Shown in pieces: positions 18,615 to 48,900 of a stretch of DNA of 64,000 bases. The notes beneath the pieces were generated by a model, which worked only from the letters and a program-made list of their open reading frames with translations, ran no database searches and had not been told where the DNA came from. Position 1 is the first letter of the stretch, and each line of letters opens with the position of its first letter. The translations under genes and the position numbers were made by a program. Source of the DNA: Hesseltinella vesiculosa (lineage: Eukaryota; Mucoromycota; Mucoromycetes; Mucorales; Cunninghamellaceae); the NCBI GenBank assembly GCA_002104935.1, contig MCGT01000004.1:248001-312000 (forward strand), given 5' to 3'.

Positions 18615-18738
18615 CCTCATATTACCTTCAATTTTGCTCCTTTTTTCTTGATCTTTGGTTCTATGAATAGCTGTGAAGGTTAGCTTTCTAATGGTGCCAT
18701 CGGAAGAGTGGAAAAAATGATATTGGGGATTTTTCCGG
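18615..18738. repeat. Partial copy of the 0.9 kb repeat (left end only)
   Basis: The left ~120 bases match the starts of the copies at 16605 and 36132, including CTGTGAAGGTTAGC and AAAAATGATATTGGGGATTTTT, then diverge. The left boundary CCCTCATAT.ACCTTCAA is shared with the 36 kb copy. Confidence 0.8.
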
Positions 18739-19239
18739 ACTGGAACTTGACAATCAACCAACGTATGGAGCACGAATTAGCCAGGAGACAAAGTTCACTG
18801 AAGAGACACAGGGTCATTTTATGTCGTAGGTTTTTTTATTTTATCAAACTCATTTCGTTTTTTCCTCATAAAACGTGCCCTGCCTGAAGTTATGGTGAGG
18901 ATCTAGAGAATGTTGAACATTGGAGTGAAGATAAGTCTTCGTCGATTTCAAAAGTAGCTGCGGCTGTTTCTTCGATTCAATCAAGCCGAGCATTACAAGC
19001 TTCCACCACGGAAGCACCTAACTGGACCTCTCTTTTCATTTCCTTTGAATATTTTCAAGTGCTGTCAAATAAATGTACTACAATGGTGGCCATGATCCTA
19101 AATGGCACCTCGAGTTAAAGCAAAGAAAAGGTATCGAATGCAGGTATGTGATTGGCTGTAACTGAAAGTTGCCAGGAAAAAGGTCGAGGAAGTTTGTTTC
19201 TTTTTCTCTTTTTCTCTTTTTCTTTCCCTGATTGACAAG

Positions 19240-21795
19240 ATGACTACCGGTAAGAAACATTGCCATCTACCTATCTATTAGATTAGATGGATACAAGTTG
19301 GTAGATGCATTTGTGCTAATCATATCATCTGCTTTTTTTATTTTTTGATTTGATTTTGTTCCATTTTACTCAATAGACGACGTTCGTGCTGCTTCCCGTG
19401 CTTCTGCTACTGCTACTTCCGGTGCTTCCACCGTTCTATCTTCCCGTGCTTCTGGCCTTAGTGCCTCCATTTGTAAGTTTTGGTTATAGACTCCATTGGC
19501 TACTTGCTGGGCATTGCCATTGCTTATGCAATGTTTGTTTACTCACATTGCTTTTTTTTTTTTTTTTTTTTTCAAGATGCTTTTTCCGGTTCAGTTCCCG
19601 CCGACGATAATGGTAAGTGCTTCGAAAAACAAGAACGAAGCAACTGAATGATTTTAACTGGTTTTTTGTTATTTTTATTATTCCATTGCTACTCTAGACA
19701 AAAAAACCAGTAAGTGACATTCACAAAATGAAAAAAAATGGTTTAAAAAAAAAGAAAAGTCAACCAATCTCCAAGAATTATCTTTCATGCAAAGATCGCT
19801 GACTTTTTTGATTTCTTCTTCTCCGCATAGAAAAAAATGGTAAGGATTTGGATCTGACTGTTACGAAACGAGTCGGACTAACTAACACCTCTCTTAATCT
19901 GTTTCCTGTGTTTGACTCGACTAGAAAACACCCGTAAGTTTGAAGCTGGCTGTAAAGCGTTTCCACAAAGAGGATTTACTTATTTCTTTATTTAATCTTT
20001 GCCGACCGTAGAAAAAACCACCAAAAGTAAGTTGAACCTACCATCAGGAGGAGTCAAATAAGATCGTGAATAATTCAACTAAAGTTTTTTCTTTGTATTT
20101 ACATTAGAAAATGCAGTAGAAAACCCAAAAAACACATATGAATTATCCACCCCTATGCCCTCTTCTTCTATGCCTTATGCCTCTTCTTCTTTGCCTTATG
20201 CCCCCTCTATGTCTTATGCCCCCTCTATGTCCTATGCCCCCTCTATGTCCTATGCCCCCTCTATGTCCTATGCCCCCTCCTCTATGCCCATTTCTCCCAT
20301 TACTATGCCCTATGCCACCACCAATATGCCTGGCTATGAAGTCAACCTTGCCGCTGTCAACGATGCGGTAATTCGACTTGCTGCAGCTGCCGTCACCGCC
20401 ACTGCTGCTGTCCCTGTTGCTGGTGACTTTTCTGCTGCTGTTCCTGCAGCAGCAGCAGCAGCAGCTGCTGCTGCTGTCGATCCCGCTGCTGTTGCTGCCT
20501 CCGTCGTCGGTGTTCCTGCTTCTGTGGTTCCACTTCTCTCGGTAGCTGCAGCCACCGCTGCTGCAGTTCTGGCAGCTGTTCCTGCAGCTGTCCCCCGTGA
20601 TGCTGCTGCCCGTCTTGTTGCCGCTGCTGTTTCTGCCGCCGTTGTTCCCGGCGTTGCCGCCGCCGCTGCTCCCGTTGCTTCCGGTGCTCCTGCTGCTGTC
20701 TCCGTTCCTGCTGGCCCTGTTGGCCCTGTTGCTGGCCCTGTTGGCCCTGTTGCTGGCCCTGTTGCTGGCCCTGTTGCTGGCCCTGTTGTTGGCCCTGTTG
20801 CTGGCCCTGTTGGCCCTGTTGTTGGCCCTGTTGTTGGCCCTGCTGGCCCTGTTGCTGGCCCTGCTGCTGCTTCTGCTCCTGTCCCTGCTCGCGTCGCAGG
20901 CAAAAAGCGACGCGGGCACGGAGAGGACAATCAACGTTTCTCTGGTAAGCATCATTAATTTAAAGAAAACAGCGTTTTCTATCTGACACTTACATTTATT
21001 GCTATCCCATATTATTCTTGTAGGCCGTCGTAGCTTGAAGTGTAAGTTGTTCAAAAAAAAAAAAAAAGACGGAGTGATGGCCAAGCGAAATTGATGTAAC
21101 GCATGGTTTATATATTCTTAGTTGCCCGCTCGTCGGCCGCGGGCGGATCTGTCACTGTTCCGGCCGTCTGGCCATGGTCCTCCCTTTGCCTTGGCTGGGG
21201 CCCAGTTTTGCCTGTTCTTCCTGGCGTTGTTTTGGTTCCGGGCCCTGTTCGCCGAGCGACGGGCCCGTACACGGCACACTATGCCGCCCTGTCAGCTTGC
21301 CCCCCTGCCCTCCGCAAGCTAAGCAAAAAGGGCATTCGGGGTAAGTCATAAAAAAAAATCTTACATGTTGTTGACCTGTCATTATTTTTTTCCTGGTCTT
21401 AGGCAAGCTGGCTCGTCAACGCCGCCCAGCAGAGCCCAAGCCCAAGCCAAAGCCTCTCTCTTTCCGCCCTCGCCGCTCCACCACAAAGGCGGCAATAGCA
21501 GCCAAGAGGGCGGTAAAGGCGATGGCCGGCTCTTCGGGTGCTGGGTGGCTGACCAGCCGCACCCTGGCCAATGCTGCTCTGTGCCAGGAAGTTCATCGTG
21601 TGCTTCCTGGCACCAACTTTGGTGCGGCATTTGGTTCTGGTGTGGAGGTGGCCCCACCCCATCTTTCTCGCGATAACATGTTGCGTAAGTTATCACTCTG
21701 TTCACCTACACATTTTATTTTGTTCTGATAGTGATCTTACTTTTTTTTTTCTTATAGTCATGAAGGACGTGTTCTCGCGAGGTGGCCACACCTAG
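19240..21795 (+). CDS. Phase-1 micro-exon gene encoding a low-complexity protein with basic C-terminus
   Basis: Twelve exons: 19240-19249, 19377-19472, 19577-19612, 19698-19709, 19831-19839, 19925-19933, 20012-20026, 20108-20944, 21024-21041, 21122-21340, 21403-21684, 21758-21795 (526 aa). All 11 introns have GT..AG ends with GTAAG-type donors and all are phase 1. Every internal exon is a multiple of three; five are 9-18 nt. Exons 4-7 encode short Lys/Asn/Thr linkers (DKKT, KKN, ENT, QKTTK). Residues ~92-120 are a YAPSM repeat, ~153-263 Ala/Val-rich, ~265-315 a GPVAGPV elastin-like repeat, then basic patches (KKRRGH; KLARQRR; PKPKPKP; RPRRSTTK). No signal peptide or membrane segment is evident. 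I do not recognise the family. The consistent phase and the frame that stays open through all twelve exons are the evidence that the model is real. Competing long frames on the minus strand over exon 8 are shadows of the repetitive sequence. Confidence 0.8.
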
Positions 21796-24700
21796 GGCCA
21801 CCACTCGCTGGTCTCTCTGGTGTCCTGTCTTGGTCTGGCTCTGGCTCCAAACTCTGGCTGGTTGTCTTTTCCGGCGCTTGGATGACTTGTTGGTAGGCAA
21901 TGCTATGACGACGCTTCCCCTGTTCCCAGTGGGGTCCCACAGGGCAGCGTTCACCAAAAGCAACGAAAGAACGAAAAAAAAAAAAAAAACGCATGCAAAG
22001 AAAAAGCATGCAAAGAAAACGCACACGCCAAAGCAACAATACCTTTTTTCATGTTTTGGACTGAATGGTACGTCAGAGCTGGAAAAAAAAAACGCTGAAA
22101 TGCTTTGCTGATCAGATGCATTGACCTATTTTTTTTTTTTTTTTTTTTTTTTTTCGCGAGAGACAGGAAACTTGGTGGTTGGCCAGGCCTCCTCTAGCAC
22201 GGCGTCTTTGCTTTGACTCTAAACGGTCAAATCATTGGCATATGCTGGGCTATGTGGCATGGCTTCTTTTTGCCTCTAGGCTTTGGGATCATGAGGGAAT
22301 GTACGGGTATTGTTGCTCCGTGCTATCAAAAAAAAAAGTTCAGTTGCTGGTGACACTGCCTGCCGGGATCCTGGGGACACTGGAAGCCCAACTGTCGTCA
22401 TAGCACCCTACTGGCAGTCATCTTAAACAAGCCCTGACCTCCAGCCTCGCAACTCTGAGCCCAAACTACCGCCCACCAAGACAGGCGGCTCTGGTATCAA
22501 GTCAACTATGTCAACACAGGTGGTGTTGTATCGTGATGGTACAAGCCAAGCCAAGCCTTGGTCGTTTATACCTATGGCTAGCGCGTACGTATTTACCAAG
22601 ATCGTCTACTATTGGCCATGCGCTGAAGTACCTGTGATGGCCCTCTCGTTTTGATCTATGGGCCTGTTAAGGCTGCACCCCTTGGCATGACTGGCTTCAA
22701 GTTACCCTTTGGTCAACATATCAATCAAGCTATGGTCTTTTTTTTTTTTTTTTTTTTTTTTGCCACAGGCAATGGTGGCTAATGCCCTGAAATCAATGGA
22801 TGGGCGAGAGATGCACCAGTGTACCTGGCCAAATCAATGACAGATCAGCAACGTGTCAGGTACGTGAAGATGTCACATCCTCTGCCTTGTCAAGCAGTAA
22901 GGTCAGACTCTCGATATTGCTGGCCAACTACCTTTGACTCTTAGTCCATTTGAGTCATGCCAGTACCATTACACATGATTGTTAACGTTCAAGACGTTTC
23001 TCTTTGTCACTCTCAACACAAATCAGTCATGGTGGAGCAATGTTATCAAGCAAGCGTTGGTCGCATTTTGGTGATATGGTAAGTTTTGGTTGCATGACTG
23101 GGCAAGGAAATAGGCTGAAGCTTACACCTCTCTTTTTTTATAGTGGGAAGCATATTTTTTTTTTGGGAAACCTGGCTGCTAGGTCACTCTCACAGCACGC
23201 CATTGTCCCCTTTGGGTTGGATTTTTCATTTTTTTGGTTACAACGTCGTCAATGGTCAAGCACAATGCATGAACAAAAAGGGAGCTTTGTGGGAAGCAAC
23301 GCGTTGGGTTGTTGGTGCTGTAAACCTCTGGCAAGCATAGTACTCTCTTGGGAGCACAAGACTTTGGTGGAATTGGCTATCATCTCTGAATACTCGATTA
23401 TGAAGGCACTTTACACTCTCGTTGGTGGTAATTTGTATGGTGGCATTATTGAACCGGTCGTCATACACGAGGCAAGGCAAGGGAAGAAACCATTGGCATC
23501 TTTGGGCGCAAGTAAGCATGTTTGTGAAAGGGAGCTACATTATAGAAGCCATCTTCTTAAGCACTGACACTTTTTATTTTCATGGTAAGGGTCTACTTTG
23601 GAAGCATTATCTTTTTGAAAGCATCTATCAAAACGCACCTCTGGCATTACCTGGTTGGGTCAGTGGATCTTTTTCAAGCAAAACCTCGGTTGTATTTGGT
23701 GGTAGGTAAGTTTTTATGAAGGTGTGATTATGATAAAGACTGCTAGAGCACAGGCATAACGAGATGATTTTTTTAGTGTGGTGGAACAGTTGACATCTCA
23801 TTGGCGGAATTAAATGGCAGCACACTTTTATGATGGCATACTCGAAGCAAGTCTCTGGCTCAAGTAAATCCTCTGGCTGCCGCGATAAATAAGGTTACGT
23901 TGATGGGATACAAATGGATGCAAGGCGGTTGATGCTCACTTTTTATTTTTAATACATCAAGATTTTATTCAAGTTTACATGGCGATACAAGCGGCTCTTG
24001 GCATTTTGCCTGGTGTGGTAGTGTGTGTGTATGGTTGCACTGGTGTTCTGTCTGGTAAAAAATGGCCACGATTCGACTTAAGGAATCCCACTTTGACCCA
24101 GGACAAGAAAGCGTTTGTACGCGCATTCGAACTTCATCTGGATGGGGAGCGCGAACAAATCTGTGACACGCGGTTGGCTCTTCGCTGAACAATGACTATG
24201 CAATTATCTTGAATTTTGACCGAGGATGACTCAAACTCGAACAACTGCGCAATCCTGCAAAAGCACAATCCTGCAAAAAGCACAATCCTGCAAAAAGTAT
24301 GCGATAAAAAAAAAAAAGAAAAAAAGAAAAAAAGAAAAAAAAAAAAGAAAAAAAAAATAGAAAAAAAAAAAGAAAAAAAAAACCATCATTCAAAATCGCG
24401 TGGCATAATAACTTGCCCTCAGCTGCTGGCAGCAAATCAAAATCACCAGCCCCTCGCGTAATACCTCTCCTCCGACTCCAATGGCATTGCTTTCTCTTGG
24501 CGCCTTCCTTTTACCATGGCAGACACTCGCATCATATACACACACGTACCACACAACAACTTGAATAGCCTGTATTAAAATAAACAAACAGACATCATCT
24601 TGAAGATGTCACAAAATAAACCTATTTCTTTTACTTGGTGGGTGGTGGTGGGTAGCTGGTGTAAGCTGAGGTAGTGTTCAGTTGCAGCACGTTCAACTTG

Positions 24701-25201
24701 ACCTCATTGTCCTTACATAGCCAAACGGCTATGTTGTCCCTCCTCAGCGAAAATCATCAGGTCCGTAGGTATGTCCATGCCAATGGTTGCGCAGTTTTTT
24801 TTTTTAGGGTGCTCCCTGCAATGATGGCTAATTAAAGGCATCTAGACACTGATCTTTTGTATTATTTCTTCACCTTGCAGCCCTCCGTTGCAAGAATGTT
24901 GGTCATCAAGGTCTCGCTCCAAGTGCATTTGATAGGAAATCAACAGTTGGGTCTAGTGATTACGACAACGCAGGGCGTCACATTGCTTTTAAAATAAATT
25001 TTTAATAAACTACCTGTATGCTGGATGCAGGCAATAGAAATGAATGAAAAAAAAAAAAGGCATATGACATAGTAACCGGAAAATGGTGTTGAAGAAGAGG
25101 TTGCCATGCCAACCGACAAACATCCGAAATGAAGCACTCCTATCCCAACAAAATGCAGTATGGTATTGGATGCCGGCTCTCAAATCAATCGAAGACAATG
25201 C

Positions 25202-37062: not shown

Positions 37063-37224
37063 AGGGTTTACTTTTTTTGTTATCTAAATAACAAAAAAAA
37101 AATAGACCGTGCAGTCCTAGCTGGTGCATGCTGGGCAATTAGAAGGTGGCGCTGCGCGGAGGCTGAATGCAGCGATCTGGTTTTTTTGCTATTTTGAAAA
37201 AAAAAAAAAAAGAATAAACGCTGC

Positions 37225-37400
37225 ACAGCATATTTGAGTGATTGGATCGATGTGAAATTTTATGAGAATGCGCAAATTCATGAATGATGATGATTCTGAG
37301 AAATTCAAGTCCATTGGTGAAGGTCACCCAGCCAACTTTTGTCAGGTTTCGGTTTTGGCACCTCTGAATTGCCAGCTAAAAAAATGAAAAATCGGTCATT
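37225..37400 (+). repeat. Dispersed family-A repeat, copy 4
   Basis: Plus-strand frame NFMRMRKFMNDDDSEKFKS then GEGHPANF, then a CCAG|CTAAAAAAATG acceptor-like junction (AKKMKN). Same order of elements as in the other copies. A stop codon follows the initial ATG. Confidence 0.7.
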
Positions 37401-37794
37401 TTCACCAGGGGACCCCCAGGTAGCCCCATTAAAAACCACAGTGCAAACTTACACTAAATGATTTCGTTCCAAACTTTGCATATAACGATGTGAAATGACC
37501 TTGATGAATGATTTCATACGCATTTGATTTTGATGCACGCTAGCACTTGAAAATGATGTAGCAGTTCGTCTCACATGACGGAAATCTGCTTTGCAAACTG
37601 CAAATCAGACCACCTTGCTCCAATAGCAGGTATGCGTACAAAAAAAAAAAAAAATGAGCCACCAACCATTTTTTTTATCAGTTACCAAGTATGCTATGCC
37701 ACGGAATCATAATAACCACAGACAACAAGCATCACTTGCGCACAAAATCTTGCACACCCCTTCTCTGACCTACTTTGCCCTATCCTCCGCTTAC

Positions 37795-45967: not shown

Positions 45968-48900
45968 TCAAGATTCGTCGTCAGCCAAGAAAGGATGGGA
46001 CAGTAATTCATTGGCAGTGGGTCGCTTTTCGTGGTCCCTGAAAAAAAAAATAGTTGAGACTCTCCGTTTTTTTGATGCAAATTGTCTCGGGAAATTACAG
46101 TTGGAAGGTGCATTTCAAAAAATCCTTTGCATCGGGACTGATATGGGTTGGAATATCGGGCATCGTGTAGCTGCCAATCTAGAAGCCATCACAAAAAAAA
46201 AAAACCAGATTAGTCACTCTTCTTTCGCGGCTTGATGCGAGCAGCCAACTATACCTGGAATATGGCTTGCATTTGAGAAAAGGCAGGGAAGGGATGATCA
46301 CCAGTGAACATTTCCACCACCATGCAGCCTAGAGACCAAATGTCTGCTTTCTTGGTATATTGAGTTTGCTTGACCACTTCAGGGGCCATCCAGAAGATGG
46401 AGCCCTGTAAGCTTGGACGATGTGCTGCTGTTGAGGTCACTTGTAGAATGTCTATGTCAAAAATAAACAGAGGTCCAGTGAGTGTCTGCTTTATCGACAT
46501 CTCAGGACCGTACCTTCTTCCACTTTTTTGGAGATACCAAAGTCGGAGATCTTAACACCGCCTTTGTTGTCGACCAGGACGTTAGCACCTTTGATATCGC
46601 GATGGATGATATCTTTGCCATGAAGATAAGTAAGACCCTTGAGGATCTGTCGCACAAAGCTCTTGACCAAAGGCTCTTGGAAAGCTCCATAACTGGATAA
46701 TAGGCCTGCTACTGAGCCTCCAGGCACGTATTCCAAAAAGATGCTAAAGTGAGCATCGTCAGATTCTGATCCCAAGTACTGCACAATGTTGTCGTGTTGC
46801 AACTCCTGGAGCAGAGCAATCTCACGACGCAAGGCCTCCACCATGGATTTTTTGCGTTCTTCAGTGGCGGAATTCTCTACTGGCAGTTCCACTTGTTTGA
46901 CAGCCATCAGCTCACCGCTCAGGGGATTCAAGCCAAGGTACACGTCACCAAATGTGCCGCGGCCGATCAACGATCCTTTCATCCATGTCACACCATTGCT
47001 TTCCACTAATGAAAGGAGAATAAGTTGTAAGAGTCAGAAGCCAGGCTTTTTTTTTCTGGCCATCCCATCTTACCTGGACAAAAGGCGGTGGGTGGGGCAA
47101 AGTGAGCAATGGTTGCCGGAGGGGACTTGAAATCGTCCTCGTCGGATTTGCTAGTGATAGAAGGAGGCTGCTTGTTGCCGTTAAGATAAGAGAGACTGGT
47201 GGACCGGTTGGCTTGCAAAGAGGGCGAAAGAGGTGGTTTGACGCTATTGATCAGTGGTGAGACAGGTGGAGCAGGCGATTTGCTACGCGGTAAATGTTCA
47301 GAGGACTTGTCATCTGGGTGGCGTGATTCATCGTGTGACGCTTGGGAGGATAGCCCCAGCGACAGGGTCGAGGGCTGGAGTTCCAAGGCAGATTGCAGGT
47401 CGTCATCCAGATCCGAGTCGTCCAAGTCCAGCGATGCCAGGCGGCTGACGATTTGTTTGGCATGGTCGGTGGCATCCCTGCCGTTGGAACCTTCGTCGTC
47501 CTCAACCTCGTGATCCAGGAATTTGTCCATGTCGACGCCCAGGACCGATACGAGTTCCGGCAGCACGGAATTGCGAGAACTGTTTCCGCTTTCATTGCGG
47601 CTGGCTTGGGACAGGCGACGCGTGGTAGACAGGCGCTTGGCATTGATGCCTGCTGTCTCCAGCAGGTCCCGCTTGTGGTTGGGGAAGAAGGAGGTCAGGT
47701 TGGAGGAAATGACTTCGGATGGAGGCCGTTCGCCAAAGAACCGTTTGATGCGAGGGTAGTTGCGAGCACGGAAAGACGAGCCTGAACGGGCTGCGGCGGC
47801 CGGAACGATCCGAGCGTGCTGCTGCTGTTGTGGTGTGAGGGGGAGCAGTGGAGGTGAAGCAGACGCAAATGAAGGGACAGGTGACGATGCTGAACCTGGC
47901 ACAGTCGATGAAGTGGCAGGCCGGGGCATGATGTCGATGGGGGAATGCGGTAGTGACAGCACAGAACCAGTAATGATTTCCATGGTGGTCTGCTTGTCAT
48001 AGCCAGTGGAAGTGTGAGGGCCAGCGAGTGTCGCAGCTGACGGCGAAGGTGACAGCATTGTCAAGTCCTTTTTGGCCGATCCATTCAAACCAAGTTGCTG
48101 TTGTCGTCGTGCATTGCTGCCTTTTCGCCGAAACTCTTCATAGGTCGGATACAAGTGTCGTTTGCGCAAAATCAGGCGTTCTTTTTCCGGCCGATCAGCC
48201 GATCGGCAAATGTCAGTCAATTCAGCATCAGACAAGGCGCGTGCTTTGAAAAAAAAAACCATGAGTGTCTTCACATTTCCTTGGCTTTCGTACCTTCACC
48301 GTTTGTACTTGACCCTACAAAAATGCAATAGCGGTCTGCGTTGCTTTCATCGATGCCAAATTTGTGCAGCACTTTGCCCATGACCATTTTTGCGGTGGTG
48401 GCATTGTGGACGTTGACGATCCGGGTTTGTCCATCTTCACCAAACACCTTGACACATGTCTAACGGAAGTCATAGGAGGGTCATCAATGGGATGTTTTTA
48501 ACAACACATGGGATATCCTATTGTGATACCTGTTTCACTTTTTCCATGGACATGATTCCGCCTTCGAGTGAATTTCGCTGTAGGCGGAGATGGAGGCGTT
48601 AGTGATTCCAATCCGACGACGAAGCGAGATTTGAATACCTTTTGAACAGTACGTGGGCTGGGAGGCAAGTGAGCAATGTCTTGGGTAGGGGTCCCATTAC
48701 CATTAACATTAGTGTTGCGGGTTTTTTTAGAGTCTGAGCGACCAAGGAAACGAGAGAATGAATTAGATCGATTCAAGAGTGATTTGCCTTCTGCTGGTCT
48801 TGATTTTTCCGTAGTGCCGTCCGTTCGCGGGTGGTGTTCGGTGGTGGAGATGACAGGGACAGACACAGTAGATTGGTTGACAGATCGGTAGTCGTTGCGA

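Follow-up and report, generated by a model that had tools for sequence, protein, structure and literature searches.

The gene at positions 19240–21795 of the window, the 64,000-nucleotide stretch of Hesseltinella vesiculosa DNA analysed here, carries a series of micro-exons and belongs to a family of this mucoralean fungus (Cunninghamellaceae) that is best read as young and dispersed, with a uniform intron phase that arose by duplication of exon units. The account that we favor as probable is that of a dispersed H. vesiculosa family that grew by such duplications and that encodes basic, probably intracellular proteins in genes with skippable micro-exons. The twelve exons of the window gene (Table 1) join into a single open frame of 527 codons (526 amino acids plus the stop); each of the eleven introns is in phase 1, starts with GTAAG and finishes with AG, and the length of every internal exon is divisible by three. 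Among the internal exons are very small, symmetric ones (9, 9, 12, 15, 18 and 36 nt, flanked on both sides by phase-1 introns), and exons of at most 36 nt account for 99 of the 1581 coding bases (6%) of this copy and for 207 of 2202 in B1, a member of a second subfamily described below. This exon set and its phase pattern had been proposed by a sequence-only reading of the same DNA; both are borne out in full, as all of the exons are in the sequence, 11 of 11 introns and the exon lengths follow the stated rule and a gene finder returns the identical model.

Table 1. Exons of the window gene, the repeat unit that carries it and the copies of its family (window positions, or locus labels for the copies).
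Feature	Position or loci	Strand	Description
Exon 1	19240–19249	+	10 nt, start codon; splice model and gene finder
Exon 2	19377–19472	+	96 nt, Ala/Ser-rich; splice model and gene finder
Exon 3	19577–19612	+	36 nt, GSVPADD unit, multiplied in subfamily B
Exon 4	19698–19709	+	12 nt; splice model and gene finder
Exon 5	19831–19839	+	9 nt; splice model and gene finder
Exon 6	19925–19933	+	9 nt; splice model and gene finder
Exon 7	20012–20026	+	15 nt; splice model and gene finder
Exon 8	20108–20944	+	837 nt; YAPSM, poly-Ala and GPVAGPV repeats; deletion scar at ~20332
Exon 9	21024–21041	+	18 nt, RRSLK; belongs to the RFxG/RRGxK module
Exon 10	21122–21340	+	219 nt
Exon 11	21403–21684	+	282 nt, basic
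Exon 12	21758–21795	+	38 nt, stop codon
Conserved 3′ tail	21798–22670	+	0.87 kb after the stop codon
Dispersed repeat unit carrying the gene	18738–24697		~6 kb; genome similarity search
Subfamily A (six copies)	window, C67, C24:111k, C19, C49, C24:38k
Subfamily B (five copies)	C1:1465k, C1:1510k, C4:375k, C4:480k, C4:532k		divergent, on C1 and C4
Remnants	C1:36k, C1:1533k, C4:521k

The gene finder, a dynamic programming procedure trained on the window's other open frames, scores splice sites and three-periodic composition while permitting every phase, and it nevertheless reproduced the twelve exons exactly; chance or hand-picking as the origin of the exon set was rejected in view of this phase-blind recovery, which extends to the relatives of the gene. 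Twelve further multi-exon genes predicted in the window, each of at least 230 residues, have 38 introns, distributed over phases 0, 1 and 2 as 13/12/13 (12/11/10 without two genes that are probably antisense artefacts), so that a single phase in eleven of eleven introns departs widely from the local pattern. The nominal chance of such an outcome is ~3e-6 if introns are taken as independent, an assumption that the duplication of exon units partly violates; one comparison gene (46249–48387) is likewise entirely phase 1, with three introns. On the minus strand, a 324-codon stop-free stretch (20143–21117) faces exon 8 and is probably a by-product of GC-rich repeats.

As a consequence of the uniform phase, gain, loss or skipping of an exon is harmless to the frame. 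The suggestion of the sequence-only reading that any subset of the internal exons can be skipped thus holds as far as the frame is concerned, but not with respect to stop codons: 904 of the 1024 subsets of the window copy are stop-free, and the other 120 make a stop, a TAA being created where exon 2 is spliced straight to exon 5, 6, 7 or 8.

Eleven fuller copies of the gene, along with remnants, were found in the 27.05-Mb H. vesiculosa genome, from which all family members considered here come. Exon 11 has four genome copies at 94–96% identity and two at 78–81% over half its length, and a pattern for the GSVPAD core of exon 3 (up to three mismatches) gives 26 matches at 13 places, versus 4 for the reversed control. 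Modeled with the same finder, the remaining subfamily A copies have 13 (C67), 13 (C24), 12 (C19), 13 (C49) and 13 (C24:38k) introns, all in phase 1, and B1–B5 have 19, 16, 16, 17 and 16 phase-1 introns plus one phase-2 intron per model. The latter lies near the 3′ end in B1 and B3, at GRF/VSIAPG, and is probably real there because identical residues appear at this point in the deposited proteins P0123 and P0122; subfamily B is therefore probably not wholly phase 1. In B2 and B5, the phase-2 intron falls in doubtful stretches of models that are degenerate or mis-modeled in places (exons 12–13 of B2, around exon 15 of B5), and two short two-exon predictions adjoining these two genes carry a phase-2 intron as well. 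The C49 copy is without the start codon of exon 1. Overall, the tiny phase-1 exons are conserved among paralogs of the same genome, and those A copies that hold the small exons keep both their lengths and their splice sites. Two of the B loci, C1:1465k and C1:1510k, form an inverted pair ~44 kb apart that is ~97% identical over 7.8 kb.

Outside the species, a protein search with a B model that required shared five-residue words returned no relative among 7995 scored candidates; the five matches with E up to 0.1 are all hypothetical proteins of H. vesiculosa. The ORC2 protein encoded in the window finds its nearest matches, over almost its whole length, in Halteromyces (50%), followed by Absidia and Cunninghamella (46–47%), so relatives from these genera are represented in the protein database. 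A second search, with exons 10–12, gave no match among candidates of ~98–313 residues, a range that leaves full-length relatives beyond its reach.

Several observations support the view that the family consists of real coding genes. In the A copies, all 49 length differences between homologous exons can be divided by three, versus 28 of 115 for introns, and alignment gaps are divisible by three in 122 of 137 cases in exons and in 28 of 194 in introns; these counts exclude exon 8 of the window and the C1:36k remnant, and the gene finder's requirement for open frames favors multiple-of-three exon differences. Purifying selection on the C-terminal exons is shown by comparison of exons 9–11 with C24:38k (dN/dS 0.40–0.44 at dS 0.76–0.85, five comparisons), with close A pairs giving 0.41–0.89 over the C-terminal exons at dS 0.03–0.17, where changes are few. 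For the N-terminal exons 2–7, the comparison with C24:38k yields dN/dS values of 1.25–1.31 and reveals no purifying selection. Moreover, between the window and C24:38k, exons 2 and 10 have accumulated 0.53 and 0.61 substitutions per site, respectively, and the eleven introns 0.12–0.35; as these two exons outpace all introns, change is rapid in parts of the protein. In C24:38k, exon 2 shares ~75% identity with subfamily B and 59% with the window, although the remainder of that copy is nearer the window, a pattern for which recombination between copies or subfamilies is a possible explanation.

How the phase pattern came about may be read from the arrangement of the exons themselves. The genes would have grown by repeated duplication of small units made of exons plus introns, with phase-1 introns as their borders, the units concerned being an N-terminal set of 36-, 12- and 9-nt exons and, further on, a two-exon RFxG/RRGxK module. 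The first of these is multiplied in subfamily B, whose arrays read (39,12,9), (36,12,9), (36,12,9), 36 nt in B1 and (39,12,9), (30,12,9), (36,15) in B3–B5; in B1, a 250-bp stretch of the array is repeated at 92.8% identity, introns included. The second module consists of an exon end with the pattern KKRxGxxDDxRFxG followed by an 18-nt exon, RRGxK, and is present twice in most copies. The window copy is derived in this respect: relative to C19, it has lost its first module through a 284-bp deletion between TGCCTG repeats, which removed two phase-1 introns and one 18-nt exon from inside what is now exon 8 and kept the frame. In C19, GTAAAC comes after the inner 18-nt exon, which the finder omits without a change of frame. 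The uniform phase thus has a simple history, since phase-1-bounded units were duplicated and lost. Mobile introns as the origin of the window's introns were rejected, with no self-similarity found within 19560–20130.

Descriptions of alternative splicing in fungi usually concern intron retention, and the splicing machinery has difficulty with exons as short as 9 nt. In the putative mechanism, the spliceosome would include or miss single exons of 9–18 nt and, given the symmetry of the array's internal exons, most combinations would still specify a full-length protein; each gene would thereby give rise to a set of proteins among which a lysine-rich linker and the count of GSVPADD units vary. Models deposited for four subfamily B genes, which are independent of those built here, bear on this point: they contain exons of 9, 12 and 15 nt and differ in the micro-exons that they leave out, the frame being kept throughout the matched stretch. 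From exon 2, agreement with the predicted set extends over 202 residues in P0121 and over 83 in P0122 once exon 5 (9 nt) is taken out (after these 83 residues, the comparison of P0122 with the B3 model shows seven extra residues at one exon start); P0123 matches minus exons 7 and 8 over 175 residues; and P0124, whose first exon differs, is without exons 4, 5, 7, 8 and 11 in its 72 matched residues and, by eye, lacks exon 12. Depending on how exon 12 of B2 is counted, 28 or 29 of 38 small-exon instances are used in the deposited models. These models, which may be ab initio predictions, are suggestive of exon skipping.

It is quite possible, on the other hand, that splicing is constitutive and retains all micro-exons every time, the uniform phase being a mere by-product of duplication and the differences between the deposited models annotation errors that predictors make where exons are very small. 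Duplication of units introns and all is sufficient by itself to keep the phase, and the exons that are skipped have the weaker sites (mean splice score 15.8 versus 18.4), as would also be expected from an annotation artefact; exons of 9 nt are those left out most often, with 4 of 10 instances used. Two features speak against this explanation: the splice-site letters of exons 4, 5 and 11 are the same in B1 as in B2 and yet the deposited models of the two genes disagree in their use of these exons, and the copies differ by in-frame exon loss at the DNA level too. Tentatively, the family may represent an independently evolved fungal case of combinatorial splicing of phase-1 exon units multiplied in tandem, in which a dozen loci would yield hundreds of variants.

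More than the gene itself is copied: in the fullest copies, similarity spans the entire ~6-kb unit of Table 1, introns and non-coding DNA included, and the unit sits with intact introns at several unrelated places, its start varying (18819 in C19, 19243 in C49). These properties raise the question of whether the gene is the passenger or payload of a mobile element, its copy number and fast change reflecting the spread of that element rather than a role in the host, which we regard as rather unlikely as a full explanation and which is compatible with the duplication history favored above. Also in keeping with such an element, the right part of the unit (23440–24697, with a sharp edge at 23440) recurs in other multi-kb repeats, two on C6 and three on C21, and the most conserved part of the unit is its non-coding tail. 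In the window, the latter shows 76–77% identity to subfamily B and 94.6% identity to C24:38k, versus 55–61% (subfamily B) and 58.5% and 75.6% (C24:38k) for coding exons 10 and 11, and its indels suggest that it is non-coding (8 of 32 gaps divisible by three). Either constraint or homogenization between copies would account for this conservation, and the tail may be a structured 3′ UTR, represent a non-coding RNA or contribute to dispersal. The purifying selection documented above for the C-terminal exons argues against a mobile element, as may two further results: a Pfam search of ten chosen open frames from the tail and related repeats detected no transposase or reverse-transcriptase domain, and no constant ends were found, the copies of the unit stopping at different points, with one piece permuted. 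The stretch 24697–24898, which lies to the right of the unit in the window, is found to its left in C67 and C24:111k, as in a permuted or rearranged repeat.

The product is basic and of low complexity. Pfam recognized no domain in the spliced window protein, in two deposited proteins or in the other sequences searched: the spliced protein gave only a match of its Gly/Pro/Val repeat to a sperm-protein family, just under the cut-off, and one weaker relative of it; the two deposited proteins gave only weak matches far under the cut-offs; and no match was returned for one deposited protein or for part of the C67 model. Folded alone, exon 11 was predicted with low confidence (mean pLDDT 60.5), and Rfam found nothing in the window at gathering scores, permissive scores adding only far-below-cut-off matches in exon 8. 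That the family might make variants of a secreted protein, in the manner of schistosome micro-exon gene products, is suggested by the symmetric micro-exons and the fast-changing exons 2 and 10; it is nonetheless very improbable and was rejected, as hydropathy analysis of five models shows no signal-peptide-like start, the first 40 residues being free of strongly hydrophobic segments, and the composition is basic. The product is thus predicted to be probably intracellular, and Ala/Val-rich internal stretches, with a 19-residue hydropathy above 1.6 in four of the five models, may permit contact with membranes. Lastly, that the small exons are chance or artefact can scarcely be credited even though it is difficult to demonstrate exons of 9 nt from the DNA sequence by itself, given that micro-exon lengths and splice sites are kept among the A copies, that the recovery was phase-blind and that deposited models contain exons of this size.

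The sequence-only reading had likened the gene to the micro-exon genes of schistosomes. In the portions of the published account that bear on this comparison, the coding region of those genes is made up largely of very small, symmetric exons whose skipping preserves the frame, all of the products have a signal peptide, the genes are described as restricted to flatworms and the families show recent copy expansion and fast protein change and are linked to transposable elements (PMC4350168). To the extent of these portions, the fungal genes share the tiny, symmetric, in-frame-skippable exons, the expansion in copy number and the fast protein change, but differ in that micro-exons make up 6% of the coding sequence and no signal peptide is visible; of the proposed likeness, the symmetric micro-exons stand, and the secreted product is not supported. 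The fungal family follows the exon logic of micro-exon genes and is not a member of the schistosome family. In the available parts of their description, aphid bicycle genes have many small internal exons, nearly all of phase 2, with ~17 exons on average, and their products are implicated as gall effectors (PMC9168663); judged on those parts, they resemble the H. vesiculosa genes in near-uniform phase, small internal exons and a divergent family recognizable by structure, whereas the latter are in phase 1 and have most of their coding sequence in a few large exons. Closer in taxonomy, arbuscular mycorrhizal fungi possess SP7-like effectors, in which a conserved intron precedes the first repeat; the sections of the source covering them report no hint of the family in Mucoromycotina and make no mention of a micro-exon array (PMC11333574). 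Compared by this partial description rather than by the SP7 signature, they are, like the present proteins, repeat-containing products of Mucoromycota, but unlike them the window gene has eleven introns and its product no signal-peptide-like segment.

The micro-exon gene design was thus previously known mainly from parasitic worms and aphids, and a literature search for a fungal counterpart gave none among the matches listed. If the combinatorial reading is true, the family would be the first such micro-exon system outside animals, as far as that search shows. A fungal family that retains many exons of this size, duplicates them in register and tolerates losing them would also offer a culturable system for studying how micro-exons are recognized, and for asking if arrays of symmetric exons are maintained because they diversify the protein or are just tolerated. 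In this regard, the genome provides a natural experiment, as it contains copies that have one, three or four exon units.

Two further repeats accompany the family. Downstream of the B genes lies a ~300-nt unit with splice-like sites that is tandemly repeated (~7056–8553 of L030 in the case of B1), and window positions 37156–37459 hold a dispersed repeat of ~300 bp that is also present near several family copies.
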